DNA from: a virus
IMG/VR virus record: IMGVR_UViG_3300020437_000003
Span: 62,001-126,000 of that record
Reading direction: 5' to 3' (one strand)
DNA: 64,000 nt
In this document: positions 9,633-61,692 of the stretch, one piece after another
Numbering within the stretch: the first letter of the stretch is position 1
Layout of the letters: each line of letters starts with the position of its first letter
Notes under the pieces: generated by a model
The model's database searches: none
What the model was told of the DNA's origin: nothing
What the model saw: the letters and a program-made list of their open reading frames with translations, nothing else
Made by a program: the position numbers and the translations under genes

Positions 9633-9640
9633 ACTATTTA
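9633..9640 (+). promoter_or_regulatory. Candidate late promoter motif ACTATTTA
   Basis: ACTATTTA lies 32 bases before the virion gene at 9672, in the gap after bS21. It is one of about 14 similar sites in short gaps. Confidence 0.5.
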
Positions 9641-9671
9641 CAATGTAAAACAAATTTTAAGGAGTTTAATA

Positions 9672-10091
9672 ATGGCACTACAAAACTGGAATACAAGAGT
9701 TGGACTAAACAACGTCGGTTCCTATCAAGTTAGCGGAAAGCCGTTTGCAACAGGTTCGTGCTTGGCACCTGTTAGTGGTTCAAATACATTAAAAATAACA
9801 TTCCCTAAAGTCACCAAGTGGGTTCAAATTTCCCCTCACCAAGATCAACTTAATCGTGAACTTCGCGTTGCGTTTAGTCAAGATGGTTTACATAGAAACG
9901 AAAACTTTAGAGTTTATAGTAGTGGAAGTTTTACCGGCCCTCTAGATCTTAAAGTTAGCGAATTGCATTTTATGTCTGAAGATAGCAGCGCGTTCACTTT
10001 TGATATTGTTGCTGGTTTAACCAATATTGATGCTTCATCAGTCGAAACCGATGCCGGTCCAAACTGGAAAGGCTCTGACGGAGTAGGCTAG
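9672..10091 (+). CDS. Virion structural protein candidate
   Basis: A 139-residue protein rich in Ser, Gly, Asn and aromatic residues with predicted beta strands and no helix-rich part, the composition of small beta-sandwich virion proteins. It is preceded by an ACTATTTA motif at 9633 and an AAGGAG site, so it seems to begin a late transcript. It is followed 5 bases later by a fibre-like gene. It could be a head decoration or a tail or fibre component. I do not recognise the family. Confidence 0.55.
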   Translation: MALQNWNTRVGLNNVGSYQVSGKPFATGSCLAPVSGSNTLKITFPKVTKWVQISPHQDQLNRELRVAFSQDGLHRNENFRVYSSGSFTGPLDLKVSELHFMSEDSSAFTFDIVAGLTNIDASSVETDAGPNWKGSDGVG

Positions 10092-10095
10092 GCCC

Positions 10096-10809
10096 GTGGC
10101 AAATTTTGGATGGGCATATGTAAATTGCACCGATGAGAGTGAAGGTGCTGGACAAGCTGCAGGGCCAACGGGTTCTGTTCAGTTTTTAACTGGCCATAAT
10201 TCTACTCTTGGTGTAGCAGCACTTGTTTATCATACTGCTTCTGATACATCGTTGCATCCTTATTCGCCAAATACGCTGGTGCTATCAGGAAACCTTCTAG
10301 TCACTGGTTCAGTGTCAGCAAGTGTTTTTCATTATGAAGATATCACTAGGATTGATGCAACTGGTTCTACATTTTTTGGTAATACAAATGATGACACTCA
10401 CATGCGGACAGGCAGCTTGGTTGTTACAGAAGCCGGTGCCGGCCCAGCAACAAATTTTGTTTTAAGTGCTAGTGCAACTCAAAAGGTTGTTAGTGTCGCC
10501 GGCTTTGCTGGCGGCTATACTGCTGTTAGTGCAACACCGACAACACTGACACAAGGCAGTCATATATATGGCGTGACTAGAACCACAGCCACTACACTAG
10601 TATTTCCATCTGCCTCAGCGGTGCCGGTTGGGCTTACGTGGATAATCAAAGACGAAGTTCCTGCAAGAACTGGTGGTGGTAATAATATTACGTTAACCGG
10701 CACTGCTGGCGGTAATCAATTGTTTGATAATGAAGGAACATATGTTCTTACTGGTACTATGCCAGCGATTAGTGTGTATTCAAACGGGACAAACTGGTTT
10801 GTCTTCTAA
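10096..10809 (+). CDS. Fibre-like structural protein with shared C-terminal beta domain
   Basis: Starts with GTG at 10096, four bases after the previous stop. The 237-residue product is Thr/Ser/Gly-rich beta structure. The C-terminal 75 residues (from LVFPSASAVPVG to NGTNWFVF) have the same pattern as the ends of the proteins at 10829, 11699 and 13569: a hydrophobic P-s-x-x-x-G strand, a V/I-K-D/N/K strand, an ILTGT-type strand and an aromatic NGxxW/KY end. This looks like a repeated tip or trimerisation domain. A role in fibres or whiskers on the virion is inferred from composition. Confidence 0.6.
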   Translation: MANFGWAYVNCTDESEGAGQAAGPTGSVQFLTGHNSTLGVAALVYHTASDTSLHPYSPNTLVLSGNLLVTGSVSASVFHYEDITRIDATGSTFFGNTNDDTHMRTGSLVVTEAGAGPATNFVLSASATQKVVSVAGFAGGYTAVSATPTTLTQGSHIYGVTRTTATTLVFPSASAVPVGLTWIIKDEVPARTGGGNNITLTGTAGGNQLFDNEGTYVLTGTMPAISVYSNGTNWFVF

Positions 10810-10828
10810 TTAAAGAAGGAGACACCGC

Positions 10829-11578
10829 ATGGCAAAAAACTCTTTCACCGGCTCAGTAATTGCACCCTTATACTTTGGCCCGGGCAAAGATCAAGCCCCG
10901 GGAAATATTGTATCTGGTAATCTAAGCACGTCGGACGGTGCAGAAGTTATTAATGTTCCTAGAGTTGGTAATGCAACAAATAATGCCATAATAACAAATG
11001 TAGATGGTAATGCCAATACATTAACTTGTGAGTCTAATCTTACATTTGATGGTGAAACATTAAATGTTACTGGAGAAATTACGGCTAGCACAGGTATCTC
11101 TGCTTCATATCTAATGGGTGATGGCAGCCTCCTCACAGGCATCAGTGCTGGTGGGGGTGGGAATGCTAATGCTCAAGGACCAGTCGGTGCACTTCAATTT
11201 CGCAATGACGCCGGAGCAGGCACAATTAGTGGCTCCAACAACCTTATTTTCAATAATAATATTTTACAGGTTTTTGGTGGCCTTAAACTTAACAGAAGAA
11301 ATGTAAATACCACTATAACGGCATCCACCACAGACTATTATATCGGCACTAACACTACCAATGGTGTGCTATCAATTAGACTACCTGATGCTGCTAATCT
11401 TTTAGATGGTCAAACCTATGTTGTGAAAGATGAGGCAGGTACAGCAGCATCCAATAACGTAACAATTTTAGCATCTGGTTCACAAACAATCGATGGTCAA
11501 AATTCAGTAATTTTGGAATCACCTTTTGCATCTATCCAGCTTTATTGTAACGGTGCAAATAAATACTTCATTACATAG
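10829..11578 (+). CDS. Fibre-like structural protein with shared C-terminal beta domain
   Basis: A 249-residue protein preceded by AAGGAG. Its N-terminal half has Ser/Thr/Asn-rich strands including an ITASTGISASYLMGDGS segment, similar to SASSFHGDGS in the protein at 14734, a repeat often seen in phage fibre shafts. A Gly-rich linker follows near residue 110. The C-terminal 80 residues match the shared domain (RLPDAANLLDGQTYVVKDE, then a TI-DGQ strand, ending CNGANKYFIT). It forms a cluster with neighbouring fibre-like genes. Which part of the virion it builds cannot be told from sequence alone. Confidence 0.6.
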   Translation: MAKNSFTGSVIAPLYFGPGKDQAPGNIVSGNLSTSDGAEVINVPRVGNATNNAIITNVDGNANTLTCESNLTFDGETLNVTGEITASTGISASYLMGDGSLLTGISAGGGGNANAQGPVGALQFRNDAGAGTISGSNNLIFNNNILQVFGGLKLNRRNVNTTITASTTDYYIGTNTTNGVLSIRLPDAANLLDGQTYVVKDEAGTAASNNVTILASGSQTIDGQNSVILESPFASIQLYCNGANKYFIT

Positions 11579-11598
11579 AAAAATACTACGCGGTACAT

Positions 11599-11606
11599 AC
11601 TATTTA
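11599..11606 (+). promoter_or_regulatory. Candidate late promoter motif ACTATTTA
   Basis: ACTATTTA lies in the 120-base gap before the large fibre gene at 11699. A T4-type TATAAATA is at 11665-11672, closer to the gene. Confidence 0.5.
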
Positions 11607-11664
11607 ATTGTGAGCGGTTTGCTATTTGTTCATACAAAATATGGATAGGTGTATCCCGTTCAGC

Positions 11665-11672
11665 TATAAATA
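11665..11672 (+). promoter_or_regulatory. T4-type late promoter element TATAAATA
   Basis: This exact match to the T4 late -10 element lies 27 bases before the ATG at 11699. A near copy, TATAAATG, is at 19702 before the gene after the capsid, but it abuts the ribosome site. Confidence 0.4.
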
Positions 11673-11680
11673 AAACTTAA

Positions 11681-11698
11681 AATGGAGGGTTTTTAAAC
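11681..11698 (+). promoter_or_regulatory. Strong ribosome-binding leader shared with the gene at 19723
   Basis: AATGGAGGGTTTTTAAAC sits directly before the ATG. An almost identical 17-base leader precedes the gene at 19723, differing by one T. Both genes appear highly expressed. Confidence 0.6.
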
Positions 11699-13243
11699 AT
11701 GGCTTACAAATTTCAATTCGGACAGGCAATCTTGTCCGGTGCTTTGGACCAAGAAGGTGACGTTCAAGTCAAGGCTCAAGACGGTTCCGTCAAGATCAAA
11801 CTTGATGACAACGGTATTATTTCTGGTTCTGGCAACTTTCAATTAAAGGGTGATCTCGTTATGTCAGAGGCCACTCGTATTAACGCTGCTGGTGCAGGTT
11901 CTTTCGTCGGTGTTGCTGCTGGTGGTGCAATCACTACCGCAACTGACATTGATGGTAGTGGTGATCTTACTATGGGCACTATTACTATGACTGGTTTTGC
12001 TGTCGATGCCGATGGTGATACCGCGCTTAAGTCTTTAGCTGTTGATAACAATTCAACTATTGGTTGTGATGCTGATACTGACATGATGACTTTTGCCGCT
12101 CAAACTTTGACTATTGCTAACGACGTTGACTTCAACGTTAATAAAGCAGGTGGTCTTCAGATTGCTGGTGCTGCAGTTACTTCAACTGCTGCAGAGCTTA
12201 ACTTTAACGATGGTGCTACTGCTGGTACCGCTGTTGCTTCTAAGACTGTTGTTCTTGATGCAAGCAAAGACATTGCTGGCTTAGGTCAGTTATCGGCTGT
12301 CGGTCTCAGTGGTTCGCTTCGCTTCTCGCTTGATGTTGAAGCTGACGGTGGTCTTGGAATGACACCATTCCAAAACAGTGCTAACGTTGCTGATCTTAAG
12401 ATTAGTGCTTCGTTCATGCCGGCTGCTGATGTTGCTGTCGCTGAAGATCAACTTATGATGCTTGATGCTGATGGTTCTGTTAAGCGTGAAAGCTTTGCTG
12501 ATTACGCTACTGCAATCGCTGGTGACGGTCTTGCTGCAACTTCTGGTGTTCTTTCTGTCGGTGTCGATGATTCGTCTATTGAGACTAACTCCGATGCTCT
12601 CAGAATTAAGGCTCTTGGTGTTACCAACGCTATGCTTGCTGGTTCAATCGCAGATAGCAAGCTTAACCAAATTACCACTGGTGATAAGGTTGCTGGTTCC
12701 GCTGTTCAGCTTGCTGGTACTACAGCATTAGAAGATGACTCTGGTTTAAAGCTTAAGGCTGCTACCGCAGGTGTTGGTCTTGCTATATCTTCTCAGGTTC
12801 TGAGTGTTGACCTCAACGAATTATCTGCTGCTGATATTGACGTTGCTGCCGACAGCATTGCTATTATTGACGCTAATGATGGCAATGCAAGTAAGAAAGA
12901 AAGCATTGCTGACCTTGTTGCTGGTATGGCTGGTGCTGGTCTCTCGGCTGCATCTGGACAACTTAGTGTTCAAGGCAACTCGGTTGCTATTGCAGTTGAT
13001 GGCTCCAACCTCTCGGAAGGTTATAACTTCGCTACTGGCTCTGCTGGTGGTACAGTTCTTCTTCCAGCTTCGCCATCTGTCGGTGATGTTGTCACAGTCA
13101 AGAACTCAACTTCTGGTATCCTTGTTGTTGCTCGCGGTGATGCGGGTCACGACATCGATGAACAGTCTGCTGTTGTTCTTGAGTCGCCACTTGCTGCTGT
13201 TACCTGTGTATACATGGTTGCAAACAAGTGGAAGATTGTGTAA
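11699..13243 (+). CDS. Large repetitive fibre-like virion protein
   Basis: A 514-residue protein made almost wholly of Ala/Gly/Ser/Asp/Val beta repeats. Segments such as TAAELNFNDGATAGTAVASK are typical of phage fibre shafts. The last 85 residues carry the shared C-terminal domain (VLLPASPSVGDVVTVKN to VANKWKIV). Codon use is strongly biased to GCT, GTT, CTT and GGT, unlike the fibre genes beside it, and the leader with AATGGAGGG is nearly identical to that of the gene after the capsid gene, so high expression is likely. A strong terminator follows at 13274. Confidence 0.65.
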   Translation: MAYKFQFGQAILSGALDQEGDVQVKAQDGSVKIKLDDNGIISGSGNFQLKGDLVMSEATRINAAGAGSFVGVAAGGAITTATDIDGSGDLTMGTITMTGFAVDADGDTALKSLAVDNNSTIGCDADTDMMTFAAQTLTIANDVDFNVNKAGGLQIAGAAVTSTAAELNFNDGATAGTAVASKTVVLDASKDIAGLGQLSAVGLSGSLRFSLDVEADGGLGMTPFQNSANVADLKISASFMPAADVAVAEDQLMMLDADGSVKRESFADYATAIAGDGLAATSGVLSVGVDDSSIETNSDALRIKALGVTNAMLAGSIADSKLNQITTGDKVAGSAVQLAGTTALEDDSGLKLKAATAGVGLAISSQVLSVDLNELSAADIDVAADSIAIIDANDGNASKKESIADLVAGMAGAGLSAASGQLSVQGNSVAIAVDGSNLSEGYNFATGSAGGTVLLPASPSVGDVVTVKNSTSGILVVARGDAGHDIDEQSAVVLESPLAAVTCVYMVANKWKIV

Positions 13244-13273
13244 TCTACCTTTTTCAACTTTGTTGAATCTTTT

Positions 13274-13306
13274 GGATGTCTCCCTTGTGGGGGCATCCTT
13301 TTTTTT
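13274..13306 (+). terminator. Rho-independent terminator after the fibre gene at 11699
   Basis: A 10-base-pair stem (13274-13283 with 13289-13298, some G.U pairs) is followed by eight T. It lies 30 bases after the stop of the fibre gene. Confidence 0.85.
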
Positions 13307-13308
13307 AT

Positions 13309-13316
13309 ACTACTTA
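13309..13316 (+). promoter_or_regulatory. Candidate late promoter motif ACTACTTA (variant)
   Basis: ACTACTTA directly follows the terminator T-run and lies 4 bases before the Smr gene start. If active, the message would be nearly leaderless. Confidence 0.4.
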
Positions 13317-13320
13317 TTGT

Positions 13321-13557
13321 GTGAAGGTTTTAGATTTACACGGAAAGACACACATTGAAGCACGTTATCTAGTTGAAGAGTTTATAATTTTAAATGAAAC
13401 TCCAATTAAGATTGTAACTGGTAATTCCGACCAAATGAAAATTATTGTCAAAGAAATAGTTGAAAAGCATCAGATGTATTATTTTCCAGAGCATTTCAGT
13501 AATTTTGGAGCCTACATAATACAAGACAAAACAATTAGTTCATCTATTTATGGTTGA
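13321..13557 (+). CDS. Smr-domain protein
   Basis: A 78-residue protein starting at GTG 13321: MKVLDLHGKTHIEA near the N-terminus and KIVTGNS in the middle match the LDxHG and (I/V)xTGxG signatures of the Smr (small MutS-related) domain, which in other proteins is a nicking endonuclease or RNA-binding module. The second signature reads TGNS rather than TGxG. The start has no visible Shine-Dalgarno site and lies only 5 bases after a candidate promoter motif (13309-13316), so the message may be leaderless. It sits alone among fibre genes, behind a terminator. Confidence 0.7.
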   Translation: MKVLDLHGKTHIEARYLVEEFIILNETPIKIVTGNSDQMKIIVKEIVEKHQMYYFPEHFSNFGAYIIQDKTISSSIYG

Positions 13558-13568
13558 GAGGGTTTGAA

Positions 13569-14702
13569 ATGGCATACAATGTTTTAAAAGGTAGTGTACA
13601 GGGTTCGGTTGATCAGCACGCAGATCAGGAGATTGGTGGTGTAAAAGTTTTTAAAAACACTGTCAGTGCAAGTGTATTCTGGGATACAGATGCACAAAGT
13701 CCTTGTGCAACTATGAAAGATGTTGCCATAAAAAGCATAAAAGGTAATGTAAATAATGGGTTAGTGATTTGTGATAAAGAGCACGGTGCGCGCACTCACC
13801 ATAACCTAACCTATAACCAAGATACAGAAACTTTAACTGCCAACACCATAGCGGCCAACACGTTTGTTGGTTCTGGTATTTATTTACAAGATATTCCCTC
13901 TGATGCATTTACAAGCCAAATAAATGCTAATTTTATAAATCACGGTTTAGGGTTGCAGAATGTTAGAGGTGTGCTGCAACTTAATACACACAATGGACTA
14001 TTATTAACTGATGAGGGTATAGGTGTTAATTTGTCACCGAACTCTGGTATTTCTGTTAAGTCAAACAAATTATCTATTGATCCTACTAATTTAGAGCCAA
14101 TTAATTCACAAGGCCAAAACTTGAGTGACAATGACTTAGTGATTGTTGGTGACATATCTAGAGGACAGCCTACTAGCACCACATTGTCTAATTTATATGA
14201 TTCATATATTAGAACAAAAGTTCCCCATCCAAGTGGCCAGCAAGGTAACTTACAATTTAGGGGAAAAAGAAATTTTGAATCGACAGACTCGCTGTCTTTT
14301 GACACAGAAAACAATGCATTAAACTTAAATGGTACTCTTAATGCGACTACAATTATCAATAAAGCCAAAATGATTTGTCAAGGTGCTGTTCATCACAATA
14401 TTACTAAAGTTAATTCTGAAACGTATAATGTCAACACTGCCGATTACACAATTATATGTGATGCACAAAAGAATCCTGTTAATGTAAATTTACCACCAGC
14501 ACAAAATAATATTGGAAGAGTTATCATTATTAAAAAAGCAGATTCAGGCAAAATCAAACTGACAGCCAATAAAGTTAATGTTGTTTGTGAAGATAGTAAA
14601 ATCGATTTAAACAATAGAACAGAAATCAAAATGAATTACTCTTCGAGAACTTTTCAATCCGATGGTGAAAACTGGTACATTATTGGCACCAAAGGAACTT
14701 GA
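13569..14702 (+). CDS. Fibre-like structural protein with shared C-terminal beta domain
   Basis: The ATG at 13569 follows GAGAGGG; a longer in-frame start at 13554 is unlikely because it would remove that site. The 377-residue product begins MAYNVLKGSVQGSVDQHAD, similar in style to the starts at 11699 and 14734 (MAY). The middle contains strand-turn repeats such as NGLLLTDEGIGVNLSPNSG. The C-terminal 80 residues carry the shared domain (NVNLPPAQNNIGRVIIIKK to DGENWYIIG). It is probably part of the same fibre or whisker group. The exact location in the particle is unknown. Confidence 0.6.
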   Translation: MAYNVLKGSVQGSVDQHADQEIGGVKVFKNTVSASVFWDTDAQSPCATMKDVAIKSIKGNVNNGLVICDKEHGARTHHNLTYNQDTETLTANTIAANTFVGSGIYLQDIPSDAFTSQINANFINHGLGLQNVRGVLQLNTHNGLLLTDEGIGVNLSPNSGISVKSNKLSIDPTNLEPINSQGQNLSDNDLVIVGDISRGQPTSTTLSNLYDSYIRTKVPHPSGQQGNLQFRGKRNFESTDSLSFDTENNALNLNGTLNATTIINKAKMICQGAVHHNITKVNSETYNVNTADYTIICDAQKNPVNVNLPPAQNNIGRVIIIKKADSGKIKLTANKVNVVCEDSKIDLNNRTEIKMNYSSRTFQSDGENWYIIGTKGT

Positions 14703-14704: not shown

Positions 14705-14712
14705 CCTATTTA
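14705..14712 (+). promoter_or_regulatory. Candidate late promoter motif CCTATTTA (variant)
   Basis: CCTATTTA lies 22 bases before the fibre gene at 14734, in the 31-base gap. Confidence 0.4.
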
Positions 14713-14733: not shown

Positions 14734-16158
14734 ATGGCATATAATAACAACAAAGGACCACAACACTCTGGAGATATTCAGTTTGAGGGCGATCCTGACG
14801 AAACAAAAATTGATTTTGAAGATGATACCATTAAACTTTTGACCGGTGGCTCTCAGCGTCTTGAAGTAATCAACACACATGTTTCTGCCTCAACTCCAAT
14901 TTCTGCCTCTTCGTTTCACGGTGATGGTTCACGTCTGCAAAATATTACTGGCTCTGGTGGAACTATGTCAGGCTGGACGCTTCAAGGAGATGCAGGTTCC
15001 AATCAGTCAATTACTGATGGCAATACAGTTGATATTGCTGGTGGTACAGGCATATCAACAACAGCGGCCGCTACAGATACCTTAACTATTAATCTTGATG
15101 ATACATCTGTCAGTGCTGGTTCTTATACATATACTTCTTTAACTGTTGATGCACAAGGTAGATTAACCGCTGCATCTAATGGCACCGCTCCGGCTCTTAC
15201 TAGTATTACAAATCAATCGGCTAACCGTGTAATTACCTCTGATGGTACCGGGCAAGCAAATGCCGAAGCTAATCTTACATTTAATGGAACAGTTTTATCT
15301 GTAACTGGTGATATTTCTGGCTCTAGTACCCTTCAAGCTGTTGGCGCCACCACTCTCGGTAACACTTTAAATGTTAGTGGTACTGTTCAAGCAGCCCAAG
15401 CAATCACAAGTTCCTTGGGAATGCATGTAACAGGCTCAACCCCAAGATTATCTATTGGAACTTTGGGAGGACATGGGCCAGCCGATGGAATGCTTTTTGT
15501 TAGACCGTCTGATGAAGCTGGGAATAATAGAGTTTTAGCTTTGTTCCAAGGAGCATCGAACGACGGACAACGAATTATTTTTGCTGTTACTGGCTCCGGT
15601 CAAGTTCTTGTGGGTGGTGGACATATCGATGGAGGCATACTTAGTGTAAGTGGCTCGACAGCAGAAACGCTGATCACAGCAAAGAGTGACTCACTCACCA
15701 ATGCTTTTCAGGTTGCTGGAAATGGTAACACAACCATATCAGGTTCATTAAGAGCTAAATCTTTACATATGACAAGTCACAAATTTGCACCCGGTGGATC
15801 TACTGCGCACTTTGTAAGATTTGATACGAATGGTTCTGATGCAGTGCAGAATGATAATAATAAATTAGTGGCACCATTTTCTGGAAAGCTTATTAAAGTT
15901 GTTGCTAGAGCAACATCAGCACCCGGAAGCACAGTTATTGGTTTGCACAGTAATGTAGACGGTGCACAAAATGTTAGCAGCACATCTACTGAAGACATAA
16001 CAGTTAATATGGCAAGCGCTAATACAACATATACCTTTAACTTTACAGATACTGCAAACTATGGCCCGGGCGACATTGTTGGCGTTAAATTTAATCCAAC
16101 TAGCAACCCCGGAACAGTGACTCTCACCTCTGTCTGGGAATTTGATCAAAATTCATAG
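14734..16158 (+). CDS. Fibre-like virion protein with distinct C-terminal domain
   Basis: A 474-residue protein behind a CTATTTA motif at 14705 and a GAAGG site. Residues 1-60 resemble a virion-attachment start (GDIQFEGDPDETKIDFED), followed by SASSFHGDGSRLQNITGSGGT and long Ser/Thr/Gly shaft repeats. Unlike its neighbours it lacks the shared terminal domain and ends with about 120 residues of a different beta-sandwich (from APGGSTAHFVRF to SVWEFDQNS). That swap suggests a different tip function such as receptor binding, which is inference. The next gene begins the scaffold and capsid module. Confidence 0.6.
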   Translation: MAYNNNKGPQHSGDIQFEGDPDETKIDFEDDTIKLLTGGSQRLEVINTHVSASTPISASSFHGDGSRLQNITGSGGTMSGWTLQGDAGSNQSITDGNTVDIAGGTGISTTAAATDTLTINLDDTSVSAGSYTYTSLTVDAQGRLTAASNGTAPALTSITNQSANRVITSDGTGQANAEANLTFNGTVLSVTGDISGSSTLQAVGATTLGNTLNVSGTVQAAQAITSSLGMHVTGSTPRLSIGTLGGHGPADGMLFVRPSDEAGNNRVLALFQGASNDGQRIIFAVTGSGQVLVGGGHIDGGILSVSGSTAETLITAKSDSLTNAFQVAGNGNTTISGSLRAKSLHMTSHKFAPGGSTAHFVRFDTNGSDAVQNDNNKLVAPFSGKLIKVVARATSAPGSTVIGLHSNVDGAQNVSSTSTEDITVNMASANTTYTFNFTDTANYGPGDIVGVKFNPTSNPGTVTLTSVWEFDQNS

Positions 16159-16210
16159 CAGTTAGTTAATAAATAATGAATGATTAAAATGGCTTTCCGT
16201 CCATAATAAT

Positions 16211-16218
16211 ACTATTTA
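16211..16218 (+). promoter_or_regulatory. Candidate late promoter motif ACTATTTA
   Basis: ACTATTTA lies 34 bases before the scaffold gene at 16252, in a 93-base gap that holds no gene. Confidence 0.5.
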
Positions 16219-16251: not shown

Positions 16252-17742
16252 ATGTCTAATCTTCTTAACGAATCCATCGTGGATGCAAAAGCACTTCGCG
16301 AATCAGCACTCAAAAATGCTGAATCTGTTGTTATTGAAAAGTATGCCGAAGAGGTAAAGAAAACACTTGAAAGCTTATTGGAGCAAGAAGAAGATTTAGG
16401 CTTGGGTGCACCAGCCGCTGAAGAGGCAACTCAAGCAAATGGTGAAGATGTAGTAGAGCAGCAGAGTGATGACGTGCCTCTTGCCGCTACAGACGGCTTG
16501 GCAGAGAATGATGGTGTCAATCTCGACTCTTTACAGTCTGAAGGTGAAGATGTGGAAGTGACTCTTGACTTAGGCGCTTTACAAGAAGCAATTGAAGCAC
16601 TCTCAAACGAACTTGATGAAGAAGTTGATTTAACACTCGAAGAAGATGAAAAGCCAGACTTCCCTGATGTAGATGGTGATGGTGATAGAGATGAGCCGAT
16701 TACAAAAGCTCAAAAGGATAAAGAAGCTAAAGAAGGTGATGACGATGACAAGGATGACAAAGATTTAAGTAAAGTTCCACCGCAACTTCGTAAACACGTA
16801 GCCAAGAAGAGAACAAATGAGGAAGTTCAAGTAGGTACGGTGTCTGAACAACAACCAGCCGGCTTTGATGGCTATGACATTGATAGGGTGTTGCCAAGTG
16901 TACTAGATAAAGCAGCAGATCAAATGAGGAATCCCATTGGCAAAGTCTTTGGTCAGACCGGTACAGCGCAAATCGCATTCATGGTTGCTAAGGCACTCGG
17001 ACTCACCCCCGCTCAAGGCCAAATCGATCGAAACATAATTGGGCAAATCGTAGACATGCTTGAGAATGAAGAACTCGCACACATAAAAACAATTAGAAAT
17101 CACGAAATCGGCCCCGCCGTTCGCCGCACTCGCGATGCAAAGCCGCTTGAAGAAAGATTATTTGATGCAGTAATGGAAAAGCTCACTGCAGATATGGGTG
17201 CAGAGTTATCCGGCTGGGCCGGCCGCCCCACTTCCCAATTAAAACACGAGCAAGAAAGGGAGCTTGCTCACGAAGCCTCAACCGAAAGCGAAGATGATGC
17301 TGCGCTTGAAGAAGAGCAAGAAGAACTTAATGAGTCTAACACACAACTTCAAGAAGTGCTCACCGATAATGAGAACTTAAAAGAAGAGTTAGCAACCTAT
17401 CAGTCTACGATTGAAGGATTAAAGGAAAACTTATTTGACGTTAATCTTTCCAATGCAAGACTACTTTATACGAACCGTGTATTAAGAAATTCCTCCTTAA
17501 ATGAGCGACAAAAAGATAAAATTGTCGAAGCAATTTCCGGTGCTGGTTCTGTCACAGAAGCAAAAACAATCTATGAAACGCTTCAAAGCACAGTGGAGGC
17601 CAAGCCTAAGCGAAGCCCACAATCACTTAGCGAAGCAATAAGTAATAGATCTTCTGTATTAACCGCGTCTCGTAAAGAGACCAAAGCAACTTCTCAGGAT
17701 CCTTTTGCGGATCGTATGAGAAGACTAGCTGGAATAAAATAA
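16252..17742 (+). CDS. Prohead core scaffold protein (gp22-like)
   Basis: A 496-residue acidic protein directly before the major capsid gene, where T4 has scaffold gp22. Residues 1-45 form an amphipathic helix, residues 45-185 are Glu/Asp-rich and low in complexity, and residues 350-440 are a coiled coil, all typical of scaffold. Between them, about residues 205-345, sits a less charged segment containing RNPIGKVFGQTGTAQIAF and a Gly/Trp patch, which T4 gp22 lacks. Scaffold is degraded by the gp21-type protease at 8380. An ACTATTTA motif at 16211 and a GGAG site precede it. Confidence 0.8.
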   Translation: MSNLLNESIVDAKALRESALKNAESVVIEKYAEEVKKTLESLLEQEEDLGLGAPAAEEATQANGEDVVEQQSDDVPLAATDGLAENDGVNLDSLQSEGEDVEVTLDLGALQEAIEALSNELDEEVDLTLEEDEKPDFPDVDGDGDRDEPITKAQKDKEAKEGDDDDKDDKDLSKVPPQLRKHVAKKRTNEEVQVGTVSEQQPAGFDGYDIDRVLPSVLDKAADQMRNPIGKVFGQTGTAQIAFMVAKALGLTPAQGQIDRNIIGQIVDMLENEELAHIKTIRNHEIGPAVRRTRDAKPLEERLFDAVMEKLTADMGAELSGWAGRPTSQLKHEQERELAHEASTESEDDAALEEEQEELNESNTQLQEVLTDNENLKEELATYQSTIEGLKENLFDVNLSNARLLYTNRVLRNSSLNERQKDKIVEAISGAGSVTEAKTIYETLQSTVEAKPKRSPQSLSEAISNRSSVLTASRKETKATSQDPFADRMRRLAGIK

Positions 17743-17769: not shown

Positions 17770-19581
17770 ATGTCTAGCATTATCGAAAGATTGACCGAAG
17801 GTGTTGTCAATCGTGATATGCGTGCCGAAGGTCATGCTCTTCTTTCCAAGTGGGAGAAGACCGGACTTCTTGAGGGACTTGAAACTGATGTTTCTCGCAA
17901 GAACATGGCACGATTGCTTGAAAACCAAGCAAAGGAATTACTCCGCGAGAGTTCTTCTATGGCTGGTGGCGATGTTGAAGGTTTCGCTGCCGTAGCTTTC
18001 CCAATTGTTCGTCGCGTTTTCGCTGGCCTCATTGCCAACGATCTCGTCGCCGTTCAACCTATGAGTCTCCCATCGGGTCTCATTTTCTTCCTCGACTTTA
18101 CTGTCGATAGCTTGCGCCCAACCCCTGCAAAGCCGGGTTACGCTGCTGATTCGTCGTTCTACGGCGGCGGTGTTGTTGGTTCGCAAATCACTGGTGGTAT
18201 CAGCTTAACCGGTGACAACGCTGAAGCAGGTCCTTACGGACTTAACAATGGGTACGCATCGCCAACCGGCTCTGCTGTTCGTTGTGCAACTGCAGATCTT
18301 GTTCTCATTGCTTCGGGTACCGCTGGTGCTGTCGCTGGAGAAGGTGCTGCACCACTCAGCGCTGCTGATCAGGCAACTCTTGACAGCCTTACCCAATACG
18401 ATCCAGATCTTTCTGGTACATTGGTTGCTGTTGTCGAGCAAACTGGTTCAACCCAATTTGAACAATTAGCAGTTGATAACTTAGTTACCATTCAGCTTGG
18501 TGCCGGTACTTCGGATGACATTAAGAACACAGCTAAAATCGTTCGTCGCTTGACTTCGGTTTCCTCTGGTTCTACATCGCAAGATCCCGCTACTGCAAAC
18601 TACAAGATTACTCTTGTTCTTGCCCAAGCTTCTGGTTCCGTTCTTCTTGATAACGGTGACCAAGATTCGCTTTTGGGTGCACTCACTGGTGCTGCAGCGT
18701 CTCACGTTGACTACGAGTTCCACATTAAGGATGACTTCCAAAATGGTGGTTCACTTGGTTCGGTTATTGGTGATGCAACTTGGGGCTTGGAAGGAAATGA
18801 AGATATTCCCGAAATCAACATTAAGGTTGACTCGGTTGCTGTTACCGCAGCTACCAAGAAGCTCAAGGCTAAGTGGACACCGGAGTTAGGTCAAGACCTT
18901 AACGCCTACCACAACCTTGACGCAGAAGTTGAGTTGACCTCGATCCTTTCGGAGCAAATTGCTCTTGAGATTGATCGTGAGATTCTTGAAGATCTCGTCC
19001 GCGGTGCAACTGCTGGTACATTCTACTGGTCTCGTTCGCCCGGTATGTTCCTTAACCGTGAAACTGGTCAAGAAGTTGGTGCTGCTTCGGCTGCTCCCGA
19101 TTTCACCGGTACTGTTTCGGAATGGTATGAAACCCTCGTTGAAACCATTAACGATGTTTCTGCTCAAATTCACCGCAAGACTCTTCGTGGTGGCGCTAAC
19201 TTCATCGTCTGCGGACCTGAAGTTGCGAACATCCTTGAGTTCACCGCTGGTTTCCGTGCTTCCGTCACTGCTGATGATGAGCGTGGTTCCGTTGGTGCTG
19301 TGAGAATCGGAGCACTTACTAAGAAGTTCGATGTTTACGTCGATCCTTACTTCTTGCGTAACGTGATTCTTGTTGGTCGTCGCGGTACCTCTTTCCTTGA
19401 AAGTGGTTATGTGTACGCACCATACGTACCACTCCAAACTACTCCTACGATCTTCGGACCTGAAGACTTCGTGCCACGTAAGGGTGTCATGACCCGTTAC
19501 GCGAAGAAGATGGTTCGTCCAGATCTTTACGGGTTAGTTATCTGCCGTGGTCTCTTAGGTGAGTCTGGCGCTAAAGCTTAA
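17770..19581 (+). CDS. Major capsid protein (gp23-like)
   Basis: A 603-residue protein after scaffold, preceded by a strong AAGGAGGTGAT site at 17755. The N-terminal 60 residues are helical and contain ARLLENQAKELLRE, resembling the gp23 propeptide end. LRE at residues 58-60 is a plausible prohead protease site, close to the T4 cleavage at residue 65. The remainder has the alternating Gly/Val/Ala beta pattern of an HK97-fold shell with RYAKKMVRPDLYG near the C-terminus. Codons are strongly biased (CGT, GGT, TTC, CTT), as expected for the most abundant protein. A terminator follows at 19606. Confidence 0.9.
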   Translation: MSSIIERLTEGVVNRDMRAEGHALLSKWEKTGLLEGLETDVSRKNMARLLENQAKELLRESSSMAGGDVEGFAAVAFPIVRRVFAGLIANDLVAVQPMSLPSGLIFFLDFTVDSLRPTPAKPGYAADSSFYGGGVVGSQITGGISLTGDNAEAGPYGLNNGYASPTGSAVRCATADLVLIASGTAGAVAGEGAAPLSAADQATLDSLTQYDPDLSGTLVAVVEQTGSTQFEQLAVDNLVTIQLGAGTSDDIKNTAKIVRRLTSVSSGSTSQDPATANYKITLVLAQASGSVLLDNGDQDSLLGALTGAAASHVDYEFHIKDDFQNGGSLGSVIGDATWGLEGNEDIPEINIKVDSVAVTAATKKLKAKWTPELGQDLNAYHNLDAEVELTSILSEQIALEIDREILEDLVRGATAGTFYWSRSPGMFLNRETGQEVGAASAAPDFTGTVSEWYETLVETINDVSAQIHRKTLRGGANFIVCGPEVANILEFTAGFRASVTADDERGSVGAVRIGALTKKFDVYVDPYFLRNVILVGRRGTSFLESGYVYAPYVPLQTTPTIFGPEDFVPRKGVMTRYAKKMVRPDLYGLVICRGLLGESGAKA

Positions 19582-19645: not shown

Positions 19646-19653
19646 ACTACTTA
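19646..19653 (+). promoter_or_regulatory. Candidate late promoter motif ACTACTTA (variant)
   Basis: ACTACTTA lies after the capsid terminator, 69 bases before the gene at 19723. Confidence 0.35.
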
Positions 19654-20327: not shown

Positions 20328-20335
20328 ACTATTTA
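20328..20335 (+). promoter_or_regulatory. Candidate late promoter motif ACTATTTA
   Basis: ACTATTTA lies 20 bases before the basic-protein gene at 20355, right after the terminator. Confidence 0.5.
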
Positions 20336-20704: not shown

Positions 20705-20712
20705 ACTAATTA
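20705..20712 (+). promoter_or_regulatory. Candidate late promoter motif ACTAATTA (variant)
   Basis: ACTAATTA lies 19 bases before the neck gene at 20731. Confidence 0.35.
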
Positions 20713-23419: not shown

Positions 23420-23427
23420 ACTATTTA
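23420..23427 (+). promoter_or_regulatory. Candidate late promoter motif ACTATTTA
   Basis: ACTATTTA lies 57 bases before the tail sheath gene, in a 119-base gap with no other feature. Confidence 0.5.
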
Positions 23428-26451: not shown

Positions 26452-26459
26452 ACTATTTA
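26452..26459 (+). promoter_or_regulatory. Candidate late promoter motif ACTATTTA
   Basis: ACTATTTA lies 26 bases before the tail tube gene, in the 46-base gap after sheath. Confidence 0.5.
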
Positions 26460-28014: not shown

Positions 28015-28018
28015 ATAT

Positions 28019-28277: not shown

Positions 28278-28283
28278 ATTGTA

Positions 28284-28291
28284 ACTAATTA
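28284..28291 (+). promoter_or_regulatory. Candidate late promoter motif ACTAATTA (variant)
   Basis: ACTAATTA lies between the terminator and the tape measure start 22 bases downstream. Confidence 0.35.
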
Positions 28292-28312
28292 ATAAAGCAA
28301 GGTAATAATCCT

Positions 28313-38417: not shown

Positions 38418-39280
38418 TTTCAATTGTTGGAATTGGCAATGCCGCATCAGCCATTGCTACGAAATTTCAAAGCATCCCCCAGTATGATGTTTATTTGTTA
38501 AACGACAAGATTAAAAAAAATACCAAGCAAAAATATAAATTAAAATCATATGAAAAACCAGAAGATTATGAGAAGAACATACCAGATTTAACTAAATTTT
38601 TTAGTAATTGTCACGATCGTGTGCAAGTCTTTGTTACCGGTGCGTCTTTAAGTTCTATTTACAGTCTTGGGATTCTTGAGCAGATTAAAGAAAAAGATAT
38701 TGATGTCTTTTATATTAAACCTGATACCGAATTGTTAACCGGTATACCGCGTTTAGTTGAGAATATGGTATTCGGTGTTCTACAAGAATACGCCCGCTCA
38801 GGTATGTTACGTAGTTTTACAATTTTCTCTAACGAGAGCATTGAAAAAATTCACTCCTCTATCAACTTAAAAACATACTATGATACGCTAAATGATACGA
38901 TCTATTCTTCTGTTCATTATTTAAATTATTTTGAGCACACTGAGCCGCATATTGGGAACATGTCGAAGCCAAGCGAGATCAGTCGAATCCGCACAGTAGG
39001 AATGCTCGATATGAAAAAACTTTCTGAAATGTGGCTTTACGACCTTGACATGGAGCGAGAATTGTGCTATTATATGTGTATAAATTCTGACCGACTTGAG
39101 GGGGAAGTGGGTCTACATAAAAAGCTTGTGGATATCTTGAAAAGTAAGCCAAGGAATGCTTTTCGCAAGATTTCATATTCAATTTATGAAACAGAATTAC
39201 CAGACTTTGGGTTTGTCGTGGCCCATACAAATGCGACACAATCAAACAAAAATACTCTTGACAAGCTAGAGCAAGAGTGA
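38414..39280 (+). CDS. Possible divergent FtsZ/tubulin-superfamily protein
   Basis: A 288-residue protein overlapping the polymerase gene by 4 bases. It starts with a strand and glycine loop, ISIVGIGNAASAIATKF. Then VFVTGASLSSIYSLGILEQI is followed by DVFYIKPDTELLTGIPRLVE and FTIFSNESIEKI. This order matches FtsZ: the GGGTGTG loop, an AEIARELG helix, AVVTKPF-F-EG, a helix, then IVIPND-L. The glycine loop is degenerate (TGASLSS), so GTP binding is doubtful. Phage tubulins are known to form filaments that position DNA. A plain Rossmann-like fold is the alternative. The gene lies in the replication block beside SSB. Confidence 0.45.
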   Translation: MISIVGIGNAASAIATKFQSIPQYDVYLLNDKIKKNTKQKYKLKSYEKPEDYEKNIPDLTKFFSNCHDRVQVFVTGASLSSIYSLGILEQIKEKDIDVFYIKPDTELLTGIPRLVENMVFGVLQEYARSGMLRSFTIFSNESIEKIHSSINLKTYYDTLNDTIYSSVHYLNYFEHTEPHIGNMSKPSEISRIRTVGMLDMKKLSEMWLYDLDMERELCYYMCINSDRLEGEVGLHKKLVDILKSKPRNAFRKISYSIYETELPDFGFVVAHTNATQSNKNTLDKLEQE

Positions 39281-39286
39281 TACATT
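39258..39286 (+). promoter_or_regulatory. Sigma70-type promoter of the gp32-like gene
   Basis: TTGACA (39258-39263), a 17-base spacer and TACATT (39281-39286) lie inside the end of the upstream gene, 51 bases before the SSB start. Confidence 0.6.
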
Positions 39287-41333: not shown

Positions 41334-41362
41334 TTGACTCTGGCCCTCCGATTGGTTATAAT
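41334..41362 (+). promoter_or_regulatory. Sigma70 promoter nested in a terminator hairpin
   Basis: TTGACT (41334-41339), a 17-base spacer and perfect TATAAT (41357-41362) drive the gene at 41385. The -10 box lies at the apex of the hairpin 41344-41377. Confidence 0.75.
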
Positions 41363-42545: not shown

Positions 42546-42573
42546 TTGACTTTACACCGAATTGAGTTATACT
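42546..42573 (+). promoter_or_regulatory. Sigma70-type promoter of the helicase gene
   Basis: TTGACT (42546-42551), a 16-base spacer and TATACT (42568-42573) lie in the 51-base gap before the TTG start of helicase. Confidence 0.65.
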
Positions 42574-49675: not shown

Positions 49676-49704
49676 TTGCAATGTACGGTCATATTGATTA
49701 TACT
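49676..49704 (+). promoter_or_regulatory. Sigma70-type promoter of the DnaE-type polymerase gene
   Basis: TTGCAA (49676-49681), a 17-base spacer and TATACT (49699-49704) lie before the polymerase. TATACT overlaps an ACTATTTA motif (49702-49709), so two classes may share the site. Confidence 0.6.
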
Positions 49705-49734
49705 ATTTAAATACATTTATTTCAGGAGGGATGT

Positions 49735-53786: not shown

Positions 53787-53794
53787 TCTACTTA
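53787..53794 (+). promoter_or_regulatory. Candidate late promoter motif TCTACTTA (weak variant)
   Basis: TCTACTTA lies 17 bases before the J-domain gene. This is the weakest match of the set. Confidence 0.2.
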
Positions 53795-53811: not shown

Positions 53812-54525
53812 GTGTCAAATATTGATATCATAAGATGGAAAAGACTTATTAACGAGTTGACATTTTTAAATGAAGAAGCTGAGTTAGTAGACTCTATAAT
53901 TTACGAGTATAATAAGCACTTTCAAGCTTATTACGAGGAATTTTGTAGAAGAAACAATATCGATATCGATAAATTGAATAGAGAAAATCACGATAAGATT
54001 ACGGAACTCTATTCAATAAATGAAGACAAAGAAACTGACGAGCAAAAAGTAATAGATATTGACCCCGAACACGATAACGAAAATTTACCTTCAACATTTG
54101 CAAATTCACCGAACAATAATAAACAAACTGAATATGAGATGACTCAAGAAGAGCTTGAGATGCACGAGTCATTTGTGAAGCTCTTTCGAGCGTTGGCATT
54201 AAAATTACATCCAGATAAGCTTAGTTCTTCCTTGACAACTGAAGAACGTGATGATATGATTGATATGTTCAATAAAGCTAAAGAAGCTTTAGATGAAAGA
54301 AAATATTTTGTGTTGCTTGATTTAGCTTCCAAGTTTAAAATTAAGAGTCCTAAAAATTATAAACAGCAAATCCGCTGGATGAAAAAAGAACTAAAAATGA
54401 TGAAAGAACAAGTTAGCAAAAAGAAAACAACATATAATTATTCATTCTCTGAATGCGAAACTGATGAACAGAAAGACAATCTGATTCGTAAGTTTATCAA
54501 ACATCTTTTCAATATAAACGTTTAG
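53812..54525 (+). CDS. J-domain (DnaJ-like) protein
   Basis: A 237-residue protein starting with GTG 53812, with GAGGG 8 bases upstream. Residues 1-110 are acidic and coiled. At residues 121-170 lies a J-domain: LFRALALKLHPDK (HPD at 133-135), then F-N-K-A-K-E-A-L and LLDLASKF. J-domains stimulate Hsp70 ATPase. The C-terminal 60 residues are basic and helical. The domain is C-terminal, as in some viral J proteins, and no Gly/Phe or zinc region follows. A TCTACTTA variant of the late motif (53787) lies upstream. It probably recruits host DnaK. Confidence 0.8.
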   Translation: MSNIDIIRWKRLINELTFLNEEAELVDSIIYEYNKHFQAYYEEFCRRNNIDIDKLNRENHDKITELYSINEDKETDEQKVIDIDPEHDNENLPSTFANSPNNNKQTEYEMTQEELEMHESFVKLFRALALKLHPDKLSSSLTTEERDDMIDMFNKAKEALDERKYFVLLDLASKFKIKSPKNYKQQIRWMKKELKMMKEQVSKKKTTYNYSFSECETDEQKDNLIRKFIKHLFNINV

Positions 54526-54533: not shown

Positions 54534-55520
54534 TTGATTACAGATATTGTTTTGGGCATACAGCACGGTGATGAGGGTAAAGGAAAGGTAACTCATCATT
54601 TACTTAAGAATGGCGACTACACACATTGCATACGCTTTAACGGTGGGTGTAACGCGGGCCACACTATCTTTCACAACGATAAGAAATTTGTTACCCACCA
54701 TATTCCAGCATCGGTATTCTTTGGGATCCCGGCGATCATTGGGCCCGGATGTGTGGTTAACATTGACAAGTTTCTTAAAGAGCTAAACTATCTAGCAGAA
54801 AACGGGATTGACATTGAGAACAATGTTAAGATTGCTAGAAACGCTCATATTATTACTAAAGAACACGTAACCGAAGATTCTAAAGACTATAAGATTGGCA
54901 CCACTAAGTCTGGTAATGGTCCTGCGTATAGAGATAAGTTTCACAGATCAGGTGTTCGTGCCGAGAACGTACCGCTGCTAGCTCCTTTTATTGTGGATAT
55001 GCAAGAAGAATTATACGGTGGTGAGGAATCAGTTATTCTAATGGAAGGGGCCCAAGGCTTTTGGCTTGATGTGGATTGGGGTGATTACCCATTTGTGACA
55101 AGTAGCAACTGTGGTGTTGGTGCAGCCATCAATAATGGGATTGATCCTCGATCAATTCGTAATGTGTGGGGTGTTGCAAAAGTTTACGAAACTTATGTTG
55201 GAATGAAAAAATTTCAGCCAGAAGACAAAATATTTGAGACTATTCAAAAAGCAGGTTCAGAATTTGGTGCAACGACCGGCCGCGTTCGGCAATGTAACTG
55301 GCTTGACTTTGAGAAACTTACTAGAGCTATTCGTATGAATGGAGTAAACAAGCTGATCTTTAATAAAGTTGATGTACTACGTGAAGTTAAAAGTTGGGGT
55401 ATGAAAAATCCAGACGCTTTCTTTGCTGATGGTGAAGACGGCTTTATGAAATTTATCACCGACAATGCCCCAGAATGTGTAGATGAAATTTTCTTCTCTG
55501 CATCCCCAAAAACTATTTGA
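54534..55520 (+). CDS. purA: Short adenylosuccinate synthetase
   Basis: A 328-residue enzyme that joins IMP and aspartate using GTP. TTG start at 54534 follows AGGAGG. IQHGDEGKGK places catalytic Asp13 in the GDEGKG loop, and GGCNAGHT carries His43. TTKSGNGPAYRDK and EGAQGFWLDVD match the IMP loops, FGATTGR lies before the specificity part, and NKVDVL the GTP site. It is about 100 residues shorter than bacterial PurA, similar to phage PurZ (diaminopurine synthesis), but keeps Asp13, which PurZ lacks. It therefore probably uses IMP. A sigma70 promoter starts at its stop. Confidence 0.85.
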   Translation: MITDIVLGIQHGDEGKGKVTHHLLKNGDYTHCIRFNGGCNAGHTIFHNDKKFVTHHIPASVFFGIPAIIGPGCVVNIDKFLKELNYLAENGIDIENNVKIARNAHIITKEHVTEDSKDYKIGTTKSGNGPAYRDKFHRSGVRAENVPLLAPFIVDMQEELYGGEESVILMEGAQGFWLDVDWGDYPFVTSSNCGVGAAINNGIDPRSIRNVWGVAKVYETYVGMKKFQPEDKIFETIQKAGSEFGATTGRVRQCNWLDFEKLTRAIRMNGVNKLIFNKVDVLREVKSWGMKNPDAFFADGEDGFMKFITDNAPECVDEIFFSASPKTI

Positions 55521-55545
55521 CTTCCCCGTCAATACTGATTATAAT
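55517..55545 (+). promoter_or_regulatory. Sigma70 promoter of the dUTPase and methyltransferase operon
   Basis: TTGACT (55517-55522), a 17-base spacer and perfect TATAAT (55540-55545) precede the gene at 55569. The -35 box overlaps the purA stop codon. All genes to 61658 follow without a terminator. Confidence 0.75.
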
Positions 55546-59695: not shown

Positions 59696-60032
59696 AAAGA
59701 TATTAGGCGGAGAAGTCAAGGAAGATGCTACCTGTGTGATTAAGTTTTATTCTAATGGTTGTCATTTGTGTCATAACTTGAAAGATTATTATGAAGATAT
59801 ATCGAATAATGATCAATTTTCTGACATCCATTTTTTTGCTTTTAATGTTGACAACTATCCCGACATTGAAAAGCAATTAAAGTTCAATGGCGTACCAACG
59901 ATATCCCTAGTGAAAACTTATACAGAAGACGTAAGTCCTAAAGTTCGGATTTTAAAAGATCCAGATAAGCCCAATGAGCAAACTTGGTATCGCTCTAGGG
60001 ATATAAAACAATTTATAACGGAGATGAAATGA
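59661..60032 (+). CDS. Thioredoxin-like protein
   Basis: A 123-residue thioredoxin-fold protein starting with GTG 59661, behind GGGAGG. FYSNGCHLCHNLK places the redox pair at Cys34-Cys37 (CHLC), and FNGVPT gives the cis-Pro turn. The active site differs from WCGPC, so redox potential may differ. It is a plausible reductant for the class II ribonucleotide reductase at 44004, whose C-terminal CDGESC needs recycling. It overlaps the preceding gene and the IMPDH/GMP reductase gene. Confidence 0.78.
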   Translation: MSVTRLSTEGLKKILGGEVKEDATCVIKFYSNGCHLCHNLKDYYEDISNNDQFSDIHFFAFNVDNYPDIEKQLKFNGVPTISLVKTYTEDVSPKVRILKDPDKPNEQTWYRSRDIKQFITEMK

Positions 60033-61087
60033 TGCCACTTACAAATTCCAGAGAAATGTTATCATATGATGATGTTCTTTTGGTACCACAATATTCTGAT
60101 ATTCGTAGCAGGTCCGAGGTCAGTACTACAACCGATCTAGGCAACGGCTTGGTCTTGAATCTGCCTGTTCTGGCCTCACCTATGGATACTATTTCTGAGA
60201 CAGCTATGGCTGTCTCTCTGGGTCGTCTTGGCGGCGCCGCTATCATTCACAGGTATAACAGCGCCGAGAATCAATGCCGTATGGTATCTATGGCCTGCGA
60301 GATTGCAAAGACAAAGTATAATATGTCTATTGACATTGGTGCAGCAGTCGGTATTTCAGGAGACTTCGTTGAAAGAGCGACAGCGCTAATTGATGCGGGT
60401 GCAACATTTTTATGTGTTGATGTTGCTCACGGCCACCATATTTTAATGAAGGAGGCTATTACAAAAATTCGACAAGCGGCTGGCAGTAATGTTCATATCA
60501 TGGCTGGTAATGTTGCTACACTAGAGGGGATCAACGATCTAGCAGATTGGGGTGCTGACTCTATTCGTTGCAACATTGGTGGTGGTTCTATTTGTTCGAC
60601 TAGGGTACAGACGGGCCATGGTGTCCCGGGCCTGCAAACCATCTTAGATTGCTCGCAAACCGACCGAAATGTGACAATTATCGCTGATGGTGGAATTAGA
60701 AACTCTGGTGATATTGTAAAAGCTTTCGCCTGTGGCGCTGACGCGGTTATGTGCGGCTCTCTTTTGGCAGGAACAGATGAAAGTCCCGGTAAGATTCAGG
60801 AAGACTTGAATGGCTCTAGATGGAAAACTTATCGAGGTATGGCCTCAAAAGAGGCACAAGTTAGCTGGCGAGGTAATTATTCTTCATTTGAGGGTGTTTC
60901 TGCAAGGGTTCCATATAGAGGATCGGTTGTCAAGATTCTTCAAGACTTAGAACGTGGTATTCGTTCTGGCTTCTCATACAGTGGTGCTAGAACGCTCACA
61001 GAGTTTCAGTCAGTAGCAGAACTAATCAAGCAGACGCCGGCCGGAATGGGCGAGAGCAGAACGCATATATTAGGGAGAAAGTGGTGA
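60029..61087 (+). CDS. CBS-less IMPDH/GMP reductase family enzyme, probably GMP reductase
   Basis: A 352-residue TIM-barrel purine enzyme. GGGSICSTRVQTGHG places the active Cys at 189, close to GMP reductase Cys186. IADGGIRNSGDI and the phosphate loop ADAVMCGSLLAGTDE are conserved. No CBS domains interrupt it, and length fits GMP reductase (about 347). Between YRGMAS and VPYRG the flap is only about 20 residues, lacking a long IMPDH flap with its Arg-Tyr pair, which favours GMP reductase (GMP to IMP, NADPH). YRGMAS and EGVSARVPYRG are more IMPDH-like, so the direction is uncertain. Confidence 0.8.
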   Translation: MMPLTNSREMLSYDDVLLVPQYSDIRSRSEVSTTTDLGNGLVLNLPVLASPMDTISETAMAVSLGRLGGAAIIHRYNSAENQCRMVSMACEIAKTKYNMSIDIGAAVGISGDFVERATALIDAGATFLCVDVAHGHHILMKEAITKIRQAAGSNVHIMAGNVATLEGINDLADWGADSIRCNIGGGSICSTRVQTGHGVPGLQTILDCSQTDRNVTIIADGGIRNSGDIVKAFACGADAVMCGSLLAGTDESPGKIQEDLNGSRWKTYRGMASKEAQVSWRGNYSSFEGVSARVPYRGSVVKILQDLERGIRSGFSYSGARTLTEFQSVAELIKQTPAGMGESRTHILGRKW

Positions 61088-61410
61088 GCGACGAGCCAAA
61101 ATACGGTAGAAACGATAAGCGTATTGTTTTTACTGATACGGATCATCGGCATGCCCAACTGTTGGTGCGTTTACGTACCGACGGTATGAAACAAGCACAG
61201 TTTTTTCGTAGTTTAATCACAGGTTACATTGAACAAGATGATAGAATAGTCAGTTTTTTTGATGATATTAAAGATCAATCTATAAAGAGAAAAGATAAAT
61301 CGAATAGGTTGCGTAAATCTGGGCAAAAACTTCTAAATGACTCAGGCTTTTCCGATGAGCAGATTCAAGATATTTTTGATTTAATTGCAGAGGAACACCC
61401 AGAGCTATGA
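61081..61410 (+). CDS. Small basic protein with ribbon-helix-helix-like start
   Basis: A 109-residue protein with tandem GTG starts (61081 and 61084) that overlaps the previous gene by 7 bases. Residues 10-55 (RIVFTDTDHRHAQLLVRLR and QFFRSLITGYIEQD) have a strand-helix-helix pattern like ribbon-helix-helix DNA-binding proteins. The rest is basic then acidic and helical. It overlaps the sigma-region-4 gene by 4 bases, so a transcription role, such as a late co-activator, is worth considering, but no specific match is seen. Confidence 0.5.
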   Translation: MVSDEPKYGRNDKRIVFTDTDHRHAQLLVRLRTDGMKQAQFFRSLITGYIEQDDRIVSFFDDIKDQSIKRKDKSNRLRKSGQKLLNDSGFSDEQIQDIFDLIAEEHPEL

Positions 61411-61658
61411 AAAACTTTGATGGTCTCAGACCATGTTCCAGAAAATGTATAGAACTTAATACTAGTTGTCCTGTGGAAAGTTGTAGAATGTGGATTGATT
61501 ACCCAGATGAGAAAAATTGTACGCTCATTTCAATCAATGAAAACGACTCAATGACCCTTAGAGAAATAGGTGAGCGACTGTCAATTTCGTTTGCCAGAGT
61601 TAAACAAATAGAGCAAAAAGCTCTTATGAAGTTACGCCGCTTAGGCGTAGAATGGTAA
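61407..61658 (+). CDS. Sigma factor region 4-like protein with Cys-rich N-terminus
   Basis: An 83-residue protein. Residues 49-83 (MTLREIGERLSISFARVKQIEQKALMKLRRLG) carry the region 4.2 helix-turn-helix of sigma70 factors; shown in two parts, MTLREIGERLSIS and ARVKQIEQKALMKLRR. In full sigma factors this part contacts the -35 box. The N-terminal 40 residues have Cys10, Cys14, Cys21, Cys26 and Cys38, perhaps a metal site, and no sigma region 2 is present. It could be a fragmentary late sigma or a co-activator acting at the promoter motif found upstream of virion genes. Confidence 0.72.
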   Translation: MKNFDGLRPCSRKCIELNTSCPVESCRMWIDYPDEKNCTLISINENDSMTLREIGERLSISFARVKQIEQKALMKLRRLGVEW

Positions 61659-61684
61659 TTTTATTAGTTTTTGTAAAATACAGG

Positions 61685-61692
61685 ACTATTTA
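61685..61692 (+). promoter_or_regulatory. Candidate late promoter motif ACTATTTA
   Basis: ACTATTTA lies 58 bases before the acidic core-like gene at 61751, in a 92-base gap, far from the other virion genes. Confidence 0.5.

Follow-up and report, generated by a model that had tools for sequence, protein, structure and literature searches.

In bacteriophage T4, gp55 recognises a lone -10-like element (PMC2988020, PMC7892883), and the late promoters show no sequence conservation at -35 (PMC2988020). Phage Aeh1 has the late promoter CTAAATA together with a divergent gp55 (PMC1524935). For the distant T4 relatives known as Far-T4 phages, Roux et al. 2015 did not detect the T4 core genes for transcription regulation (PMC4360716). 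Here we describe the octamer ACTATTTA in a 64,000-nucleotide stretch of DNA (the window), bases 62001-126000 of the 145,971-base IMG/VR virus record IMGVR_UViG_3300020437_000003, where an earlier note had proposed it as a candidate new late promoter. The reading as a late promoter was supported by our analysis, and since the word shares the TA-nn-TA frame of the T4 octamer TATAAATA, the name divergent T4-type late promoter suits it better than a label as something new and unrelated. As judged from sequence comparison, ACTA[T/A/C]TTA is very probably the late promoter element throughout a clade of marine Far-T4 phages, recognised by a divergent gp55-type sigma factor on the host RNA polymerase.

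Distribution of the octamer in the record and its relatives

Counted in gaps and in coding DNA on both strands, ACTATTTA is strand-specific and concentrated in gaps and ahead of start codons. The plus strand holds every called gene of the record, and the word occurs there 21 times against 2 on the minus strand (12 and 11 for a reversed-word control). It is the commonest 8-mer in the gene gaps, where 4.0 kb of noncoding sequence holds 11 copies, and 15 of the 20 copies tested are positioned 15-110 nt ahead of a start codon (binomial P 1.3e-11; this interval accounts for 10.2% of positions). The null model, 280 permutations of the same letters, gave an average of 0.9 near starts, and the runners-up were shifted copies of ACTATTTA itself. 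Some copies lie in the 3' end of the upstream gene, yet 23-66 nt ahead of the next start. The excess over chance claimed in the earlier note was borne out, with 11 matches in the window against 3.5 expected. As a control, the gap-word method applied to T4 returned TATAAATA as the top word, which validates it. In the window, TATAAATA itself is not enriched (3 matches vs 4.7 expected), and the motif departs from the T4 octamer definition (TATAAATA or A/T at -13); the statement that TATAAATA occurs exactly once (11665) holds for the plus strand, two further copies being located on the minus strand.

The same pattern was observed in 80 relatives with a capsid identity of 59-82%, where no noncoding 8-mer is commoner than ACTATTTA, with 266 copies on the plus and 6 on the minus strand. 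Of the 80 loci, 75 carry it in a gap and none carries its reverse complement there. Near starts, 218 copies were counted, whereas the permutations average 5.5; among complete or long relatives, the strand ratios are e.g. 28 to 2 and 27 to 0. The variants ACTAATTA and ACTACTTA are likewise enriched, so that the word is written ACTA[T/A/C]TTA. By downstream ortholog, sites of the motif were found ahead of the gene at 16252 (60), tail sheath (56), neck (50) and tail tube (30) and, in a second locus set, ahead of a baseplate wedge gene (31). In addition, a distant relative used for ortholog comparison (G004) carries the motif before the same orthologs, including those of the genes at 9672, 13569, 28313 and 61751 and of the gene at record position 131570. 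In line with the view that nearly all sites precede virion genes, the motif is conserved before orthologous virion genes in the 80 relatives and G004; the site at 49702 precedes the gene of DNA polymerase III alpha. Furthermore, a terminator-like hairpin is situated just upstream of 78 of 301 motif sites (3 after shuffling), as the earlier note had noticed for several sites of the window, and transcription must restart there.

The eight exact and six variant sites listed previously all read as described, the exact ones all inside intergenic gaps, and all are on the plus strand. Candidate late promoter elements with the exact word are located at 9633..9640, 39 nt ahead of gene 9672-10091 (ortholog g71672, 12 sites in relatives, also in G004), at 11599..11606, 100 nt ahead of gene 11699-13243 (8 ortholog sites), and at 16211..16218, 41 nt ahead of gene 16252-17742 (60 ortholog sites in the 80 relatives, 51 of them exact). 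Further exact copies are found at 20328..20335, after a terminator and 27 nt ahead of gene 20355-20660, at 23420..23427, 64 nt ahead of the tail sheath gene 23484-26438 (56 ortholog sites, 52 exact), at 26452..26459, 33 nt ahead of the tail tube gene 26485-27081 (30 ortholog sites), and at 61685..61692, 66 nt ahead of gene 61751-62365, which is predicted to be late and whose G004 ortholog is preceded by the conserved word; the eighth, at 49702, is treated below. Among the variants, ACTACTTA follows a terminator directly at 13309..13316, with related sites before the orthologs of 13321 and 13569, and occurs after a terminator hairpin at 19646..19653, before gene 19723-20256. ACTAATTA lies at 20705..20712, 26 nt ahead of the gp13-like neck gene 20731-22005 (50 ortholog sites, of which 27 are ACTATTTA), and at 28284..28291, after a terminator and before gene 28313-30919 (6 ortholog sites, also in G004). 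Weaker candidates are CCTATTTA at 14705..14712, before the tail-fibre-like gene 14734-16158 and outside the enriched ACTA[TAC]TTA set, and TCTACTTA at 53787..53794, before gene 53812-54525, whose 32% identical ortholog in G004 is preceded by ACTACTTA. Three additional exact matches, absent from the earlier note, were found at 8109 (+), 8181 (+) and 40109 (-); the first two were rejected as promoters, as both are within a coding gene where ACTATTTA encodes E-L-F-N. Outside the window, ACTATTTA is also found 17 nt past the last of four tRNA genes (Leu-TAA, Met-CAT, Arg-TCT and Ile-TAT; record 142737-144455, L016:2737-4455).

Judged from its RM378/immuto-type gp23 and its T4-like structural block, the virus is a distant T4 relative of the Far-T4 group (PMC4360716). 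The block comprises genes for the major capsid protein gp23 (17770..19581, plus strand; phrog_138, E 3e-71), the sheath and tube, a gp13-like neck protein, the portal, terminase and baseplate, and further genes encode UvsX, a gp32-like protein, a DnaB-like helicase, ribonucleotide reductase and DNA polymerase III alpha. The nearest named capsids are those of Flavobacterium phage immuto, Microcystis phage Mel-JY01 and Rhodothermus phage RM378, together with an uncultured phage record. The tail/baseplate region also encodes a 3713-aa protein that carries a lectin-like domain close to the N-terminus (record 27984-39125, L010:7984-19125). Moreover, the window has a match to phrog_1211 (2-aminooxy adenylosuccinate synthetase, E 3e-63) at 54534-55520, a possible gene of a 2-aminoadenine (Z-base) pathway, and four nucleotide-sugar epimerase-like genes are grouped with glycosyltransferase, sulfotransferase-like and aminotransferase-like genes at record 1960-12277 (L009), perhaps for surface sugar or DNA decoration.

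The gp55-like protein and an upstream element

The probable reader of the motif is a gp55-like protein encoded outside the window. It was first called at 182 aa (phrog_234, E 1.7e-4), and comparison with relatives moved its start upstream, giving 237 aa at record 13037-13750. It is 73-100% identical in 80 relatives over the 182-aa query, aligns with the proteins of immuto-like phages at about 30% identity, and its profile matched T4 and Syn33 gp55 (E 2e-5, probability 77%). The best matches of the predicted fold were sigma-32, sigma-E region 2 and sigma-A domain 2, all at E 0.08 or weaker. A 187,393-base contig (L105) encodes a protein identical over the 182-aa query, and the 145,971-base record may be a partial version of this contig.

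In the model that we favour, the phage would make this divergent gp55-type sigma factor, which would bind the host RNA polymerase core via sigma domain 2 and direct it to ACTATTTA, and in this way the late genes, those of the virion and tail among them, would be transcribed. ACTA[T/A/C]TTA would be the -10-position element of these late promoters, with transcription expected to start about 6-8 nt past the motif, and early and replication genes would depend on ordinary host sigma-70 promoters. A phage RNA polymerase was rejected as the reader of the motif: the sole PF00940 match is inside the terminase gene, no Rpb2 was found, and the 3713-aa protein, checked as an RNA polymerase candidate, showed the lectin-like domain only.

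Several observations weigh against this model. Homology of the protein to T4 gp55 is weak, and its structure was predicted with middling confidence (pLDDT 74, pTM 0.43). Several of the motif-bearing genes are without known function, thus late expression is argued for the virion subset only. The gp23 gene is not itself immediately preceded by the motif and must depend on the promoter further upstream; directly upstream of the gp23 gene lies gene 16252-17742, in the scaffold position. Activated T4 late transcription needs both gp33 and gp45. Searches that found both in T4 gave no gp33 (PF16805) in four clade genomes or immuto, where a very divergent one could escape, and no gp45 (PF02916) in the clade.

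The motif is accompanied by a soft upstream signal. The 16211 site is preceded by GGCTTTC (16191..16197, plus strand), at -20 to -14 from the start of the motif, and relatives aligned on the motif show G at -19 and a T-run at about -16 to -13. Across 13 ortholog groups, the frequency of T at -15/-14/-13 is 0.57-0.61 against a background of 0.30 (sd 0.065), while G at -19 reaches 0.45 (background 0.18, sd 0.029). We rejected the homology of a single promoter as the origin of this element, which is common to several unrelated promoters, and also the terminator tail as its sole cause, given that the element is kept in sites without a hairpin.

This signal raises the best surviving alternative, which extends the gp55-type model rather than replacing it: a bipartite, clamp-independent promoter, in which a C-terminal helix-turn-helix-like domain of the factor would read the upstream G..TTT and do the job of gp33 and gp45. 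The gp55-like protein does have a C-terminal helical domain that T4 gp55 lacks and that two clades still share at about 30% identity. The SLDFLYE-like hydrophobic-acidic clamp-binding tail of T4 gp55 was not found in the clade proteins, which end W-x-x-G, and DnaN, like gp33 and the T4-type clamp, was not found in the clade. Together, the upstream element and the missing clamp and gp33 suggest that an upstream contact may come from the C-terminal domain. On the other side, the T-run coincides with the terminator tail at part of the sites, and the element is missing from promoters that overlap coding DNA and is thus optional at best. Moreover, a fold search with the C-terminal domain alone gave no significant top match, sigma region 4 appearing at E >2 only, which leaves an assignment to sigma region 4 unsupported. 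We regard the bipartite promoter as a proposal that falls somewhat short of probable. Slightly more tentative still is the wider idea that Far-T4 late transcription might be uncoupled from the replication clamp, with a two-domain gp55-type sigma factor, a bipartite promoter (G..TTT + ACTATTTA) and host RNA polymerase replacing gp55-gp33-gp45.

Sigma-70 promoters and the remaining alternatives

Host-type promoters clearly serve other genes of this phage. Canonical sigma-70 promoters occupy gaps before replication and metabolic genes; on the plus strand of the window, such sites were found at 39258..39286 before the gp32-like gene 39338 (10/12), at 41334..41362 before gene 41385 (TTGACT-17-TATAAT, 11/12), at 42546..42573 before the DnaB-like helicase gene 42595 (10/12) and at 55517..55545 before gene 55569 (TTGACT-17-TATAAT, 11/12). 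A phage GroEL chaperonin gene (record 127216-128802, L015:7216-8802; phrog_5725, E 3e-139) has a perfect sigma-70 promoter, TTGACA-17-TATAAT (12/12). The Bacteroidota promoter form, TTG / TAnnTTTG, was not matched, the sigma-70 sites here being of the canonical kind.

Host RNA polymerase might accordingly recognise ACTATTTA through one of the host's own sigma factors and without any phage factor, as some T4-related phages such as Ma-LMM01 are without gp55 and apparently use sigma-70 throughout (PMC5780444). However, no TTGACA is paired with the word at the distance typical of sigma-70 promoters, and the word and strong sigma-70 sites (score at least 10/12) exclude each other: among 53 upstream regions, 22 have the late word and 8 a strong site, with an overlap of 0 (P 0.009). 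Per 100 kb, ACTATTTA has a density of 27 around the capsid gene, compared with 5.6 at gp55 loci and 2.7 at DNA polymerase loci. In addition, the highly conserved gp55-like factor is kept, and the motif is common to relatives that infect Flavobacterium, hosts which follow other promoter rules. Recognition by a host sigma factor is thus improbable.

The copy of ACTATTTA at 49702..49709 (plus strand), before the DNA polymerase III alpha gene, was rejected as a late promoter and dropped from the late set. It overlaps a sigma-70 promoter (TTGCAA-17-TATACT, 49676-49704), an overlap that we judge coincidental, and the word is missing at the equivalent place in 79 of 80 orthologs tested, while a strong sigma-70 promoter is present in 24 of 35 orthologs examined, compared with 3 after shuffling. 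The gene itself (49735-53169) encodes a bacterial-type DNA polymerase III alpha with a PHP domain in a T4-related phage, and no sliding clamp gene was found; replication of this phage may rely on the clamp of the host.

A little less probable than recognition by a host sigma factor is that the motif acts in the leader RNA, as a translation enhancer, processing site or part of a terminator. The word is strand-specific and near start codons, and a processing site would appear alike. The distance from the motif to the start codon, though, ranges from about 23 to 100 nt, the motif is often just past a terminator, and it has the T4 late frame; the terminators upstream, the variable distance and the fact that the word replaces strong sigma-70 sites and does not join them argue for a promoter. 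Finally, although two exact matches in the window are coding E-L-F-N repeats, a chance or codon-usage artefact of AT-rich DNA is refuted by the permutation and ortholog-position tests and by the strand ratio in the relatives, and is of negligible probability.

Relation to known late promoters

Like T4, the clade has a single conserved 8-bp element at the presumed -10 position before virion genes, shares the nnTAnnTA frame of TATAAATA and encodes a gp55-type factor. It differs from T4 at positions 1, 2, 5 and 6 of the octamer and in the soft upstream element where T4 has no -35 conservation, and no gp33, T4-type gp45 or clamp tail of gp55 could be found in it. In the Aeh1 promoter, too, a divergent late element of the T4 type has C ahead of TA and is paired with a divergent gp55, but it reads CTAAATA in place of CTATTTA, and Aeh1, a phage of Aeromonas, is a nearer relative of T4. 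A further case is immuto (Immutovirus) and its relatives, with the gap motif (A/C)TATTTATA, 21 plus-strand and 6 minus-strand copies of ACTATTTA in the immuto genome, and a gp55-like factor sharing the C-terminal domain; here an extended TATA tail is favoured. In immuto-like loci, CTATTTAT is found in gaps of 74 of 80, against 11 for the reverse complement, many of the matches being at a few orthologous places. Elsewhere, Mel-JY01 favours the gap word ATATTTAT and RM378 TTATTTAA, thus a TATTTA core may be general to Far-T4 phages.

Our literature search found no report of promoters of Immutovirus phages, nor of ACTATTTA or CTATTTA as a phage promoter. The motif described here is real and, as a probable clade-wide variant of the T4-type late promoter, previously undescribed as far as that search shows. 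The virus agrees with Far-T4 phages such as RM378 in the clade type of its gp23, portal, terminase and tail genes, and departs from the picture of Roux et al. 2015 by its gp55-like factor and likely promoter.

Far-T4 phages are widespread in water and hardly any are cultured. A late promoter with its probable sigma factor would make the timing of their genes readable from sequence, and the motif flags genes of unknown function as putatively late, among them the gene at 61751 and that of a 1165-aa protein at record position 131570. Moreover, the clade is a natural experiment in which to follow the joint change of a sigma factor and its promoter, and to ask whether the coupling of late transcription to the clamp is ancestral or was added on the T4 side.

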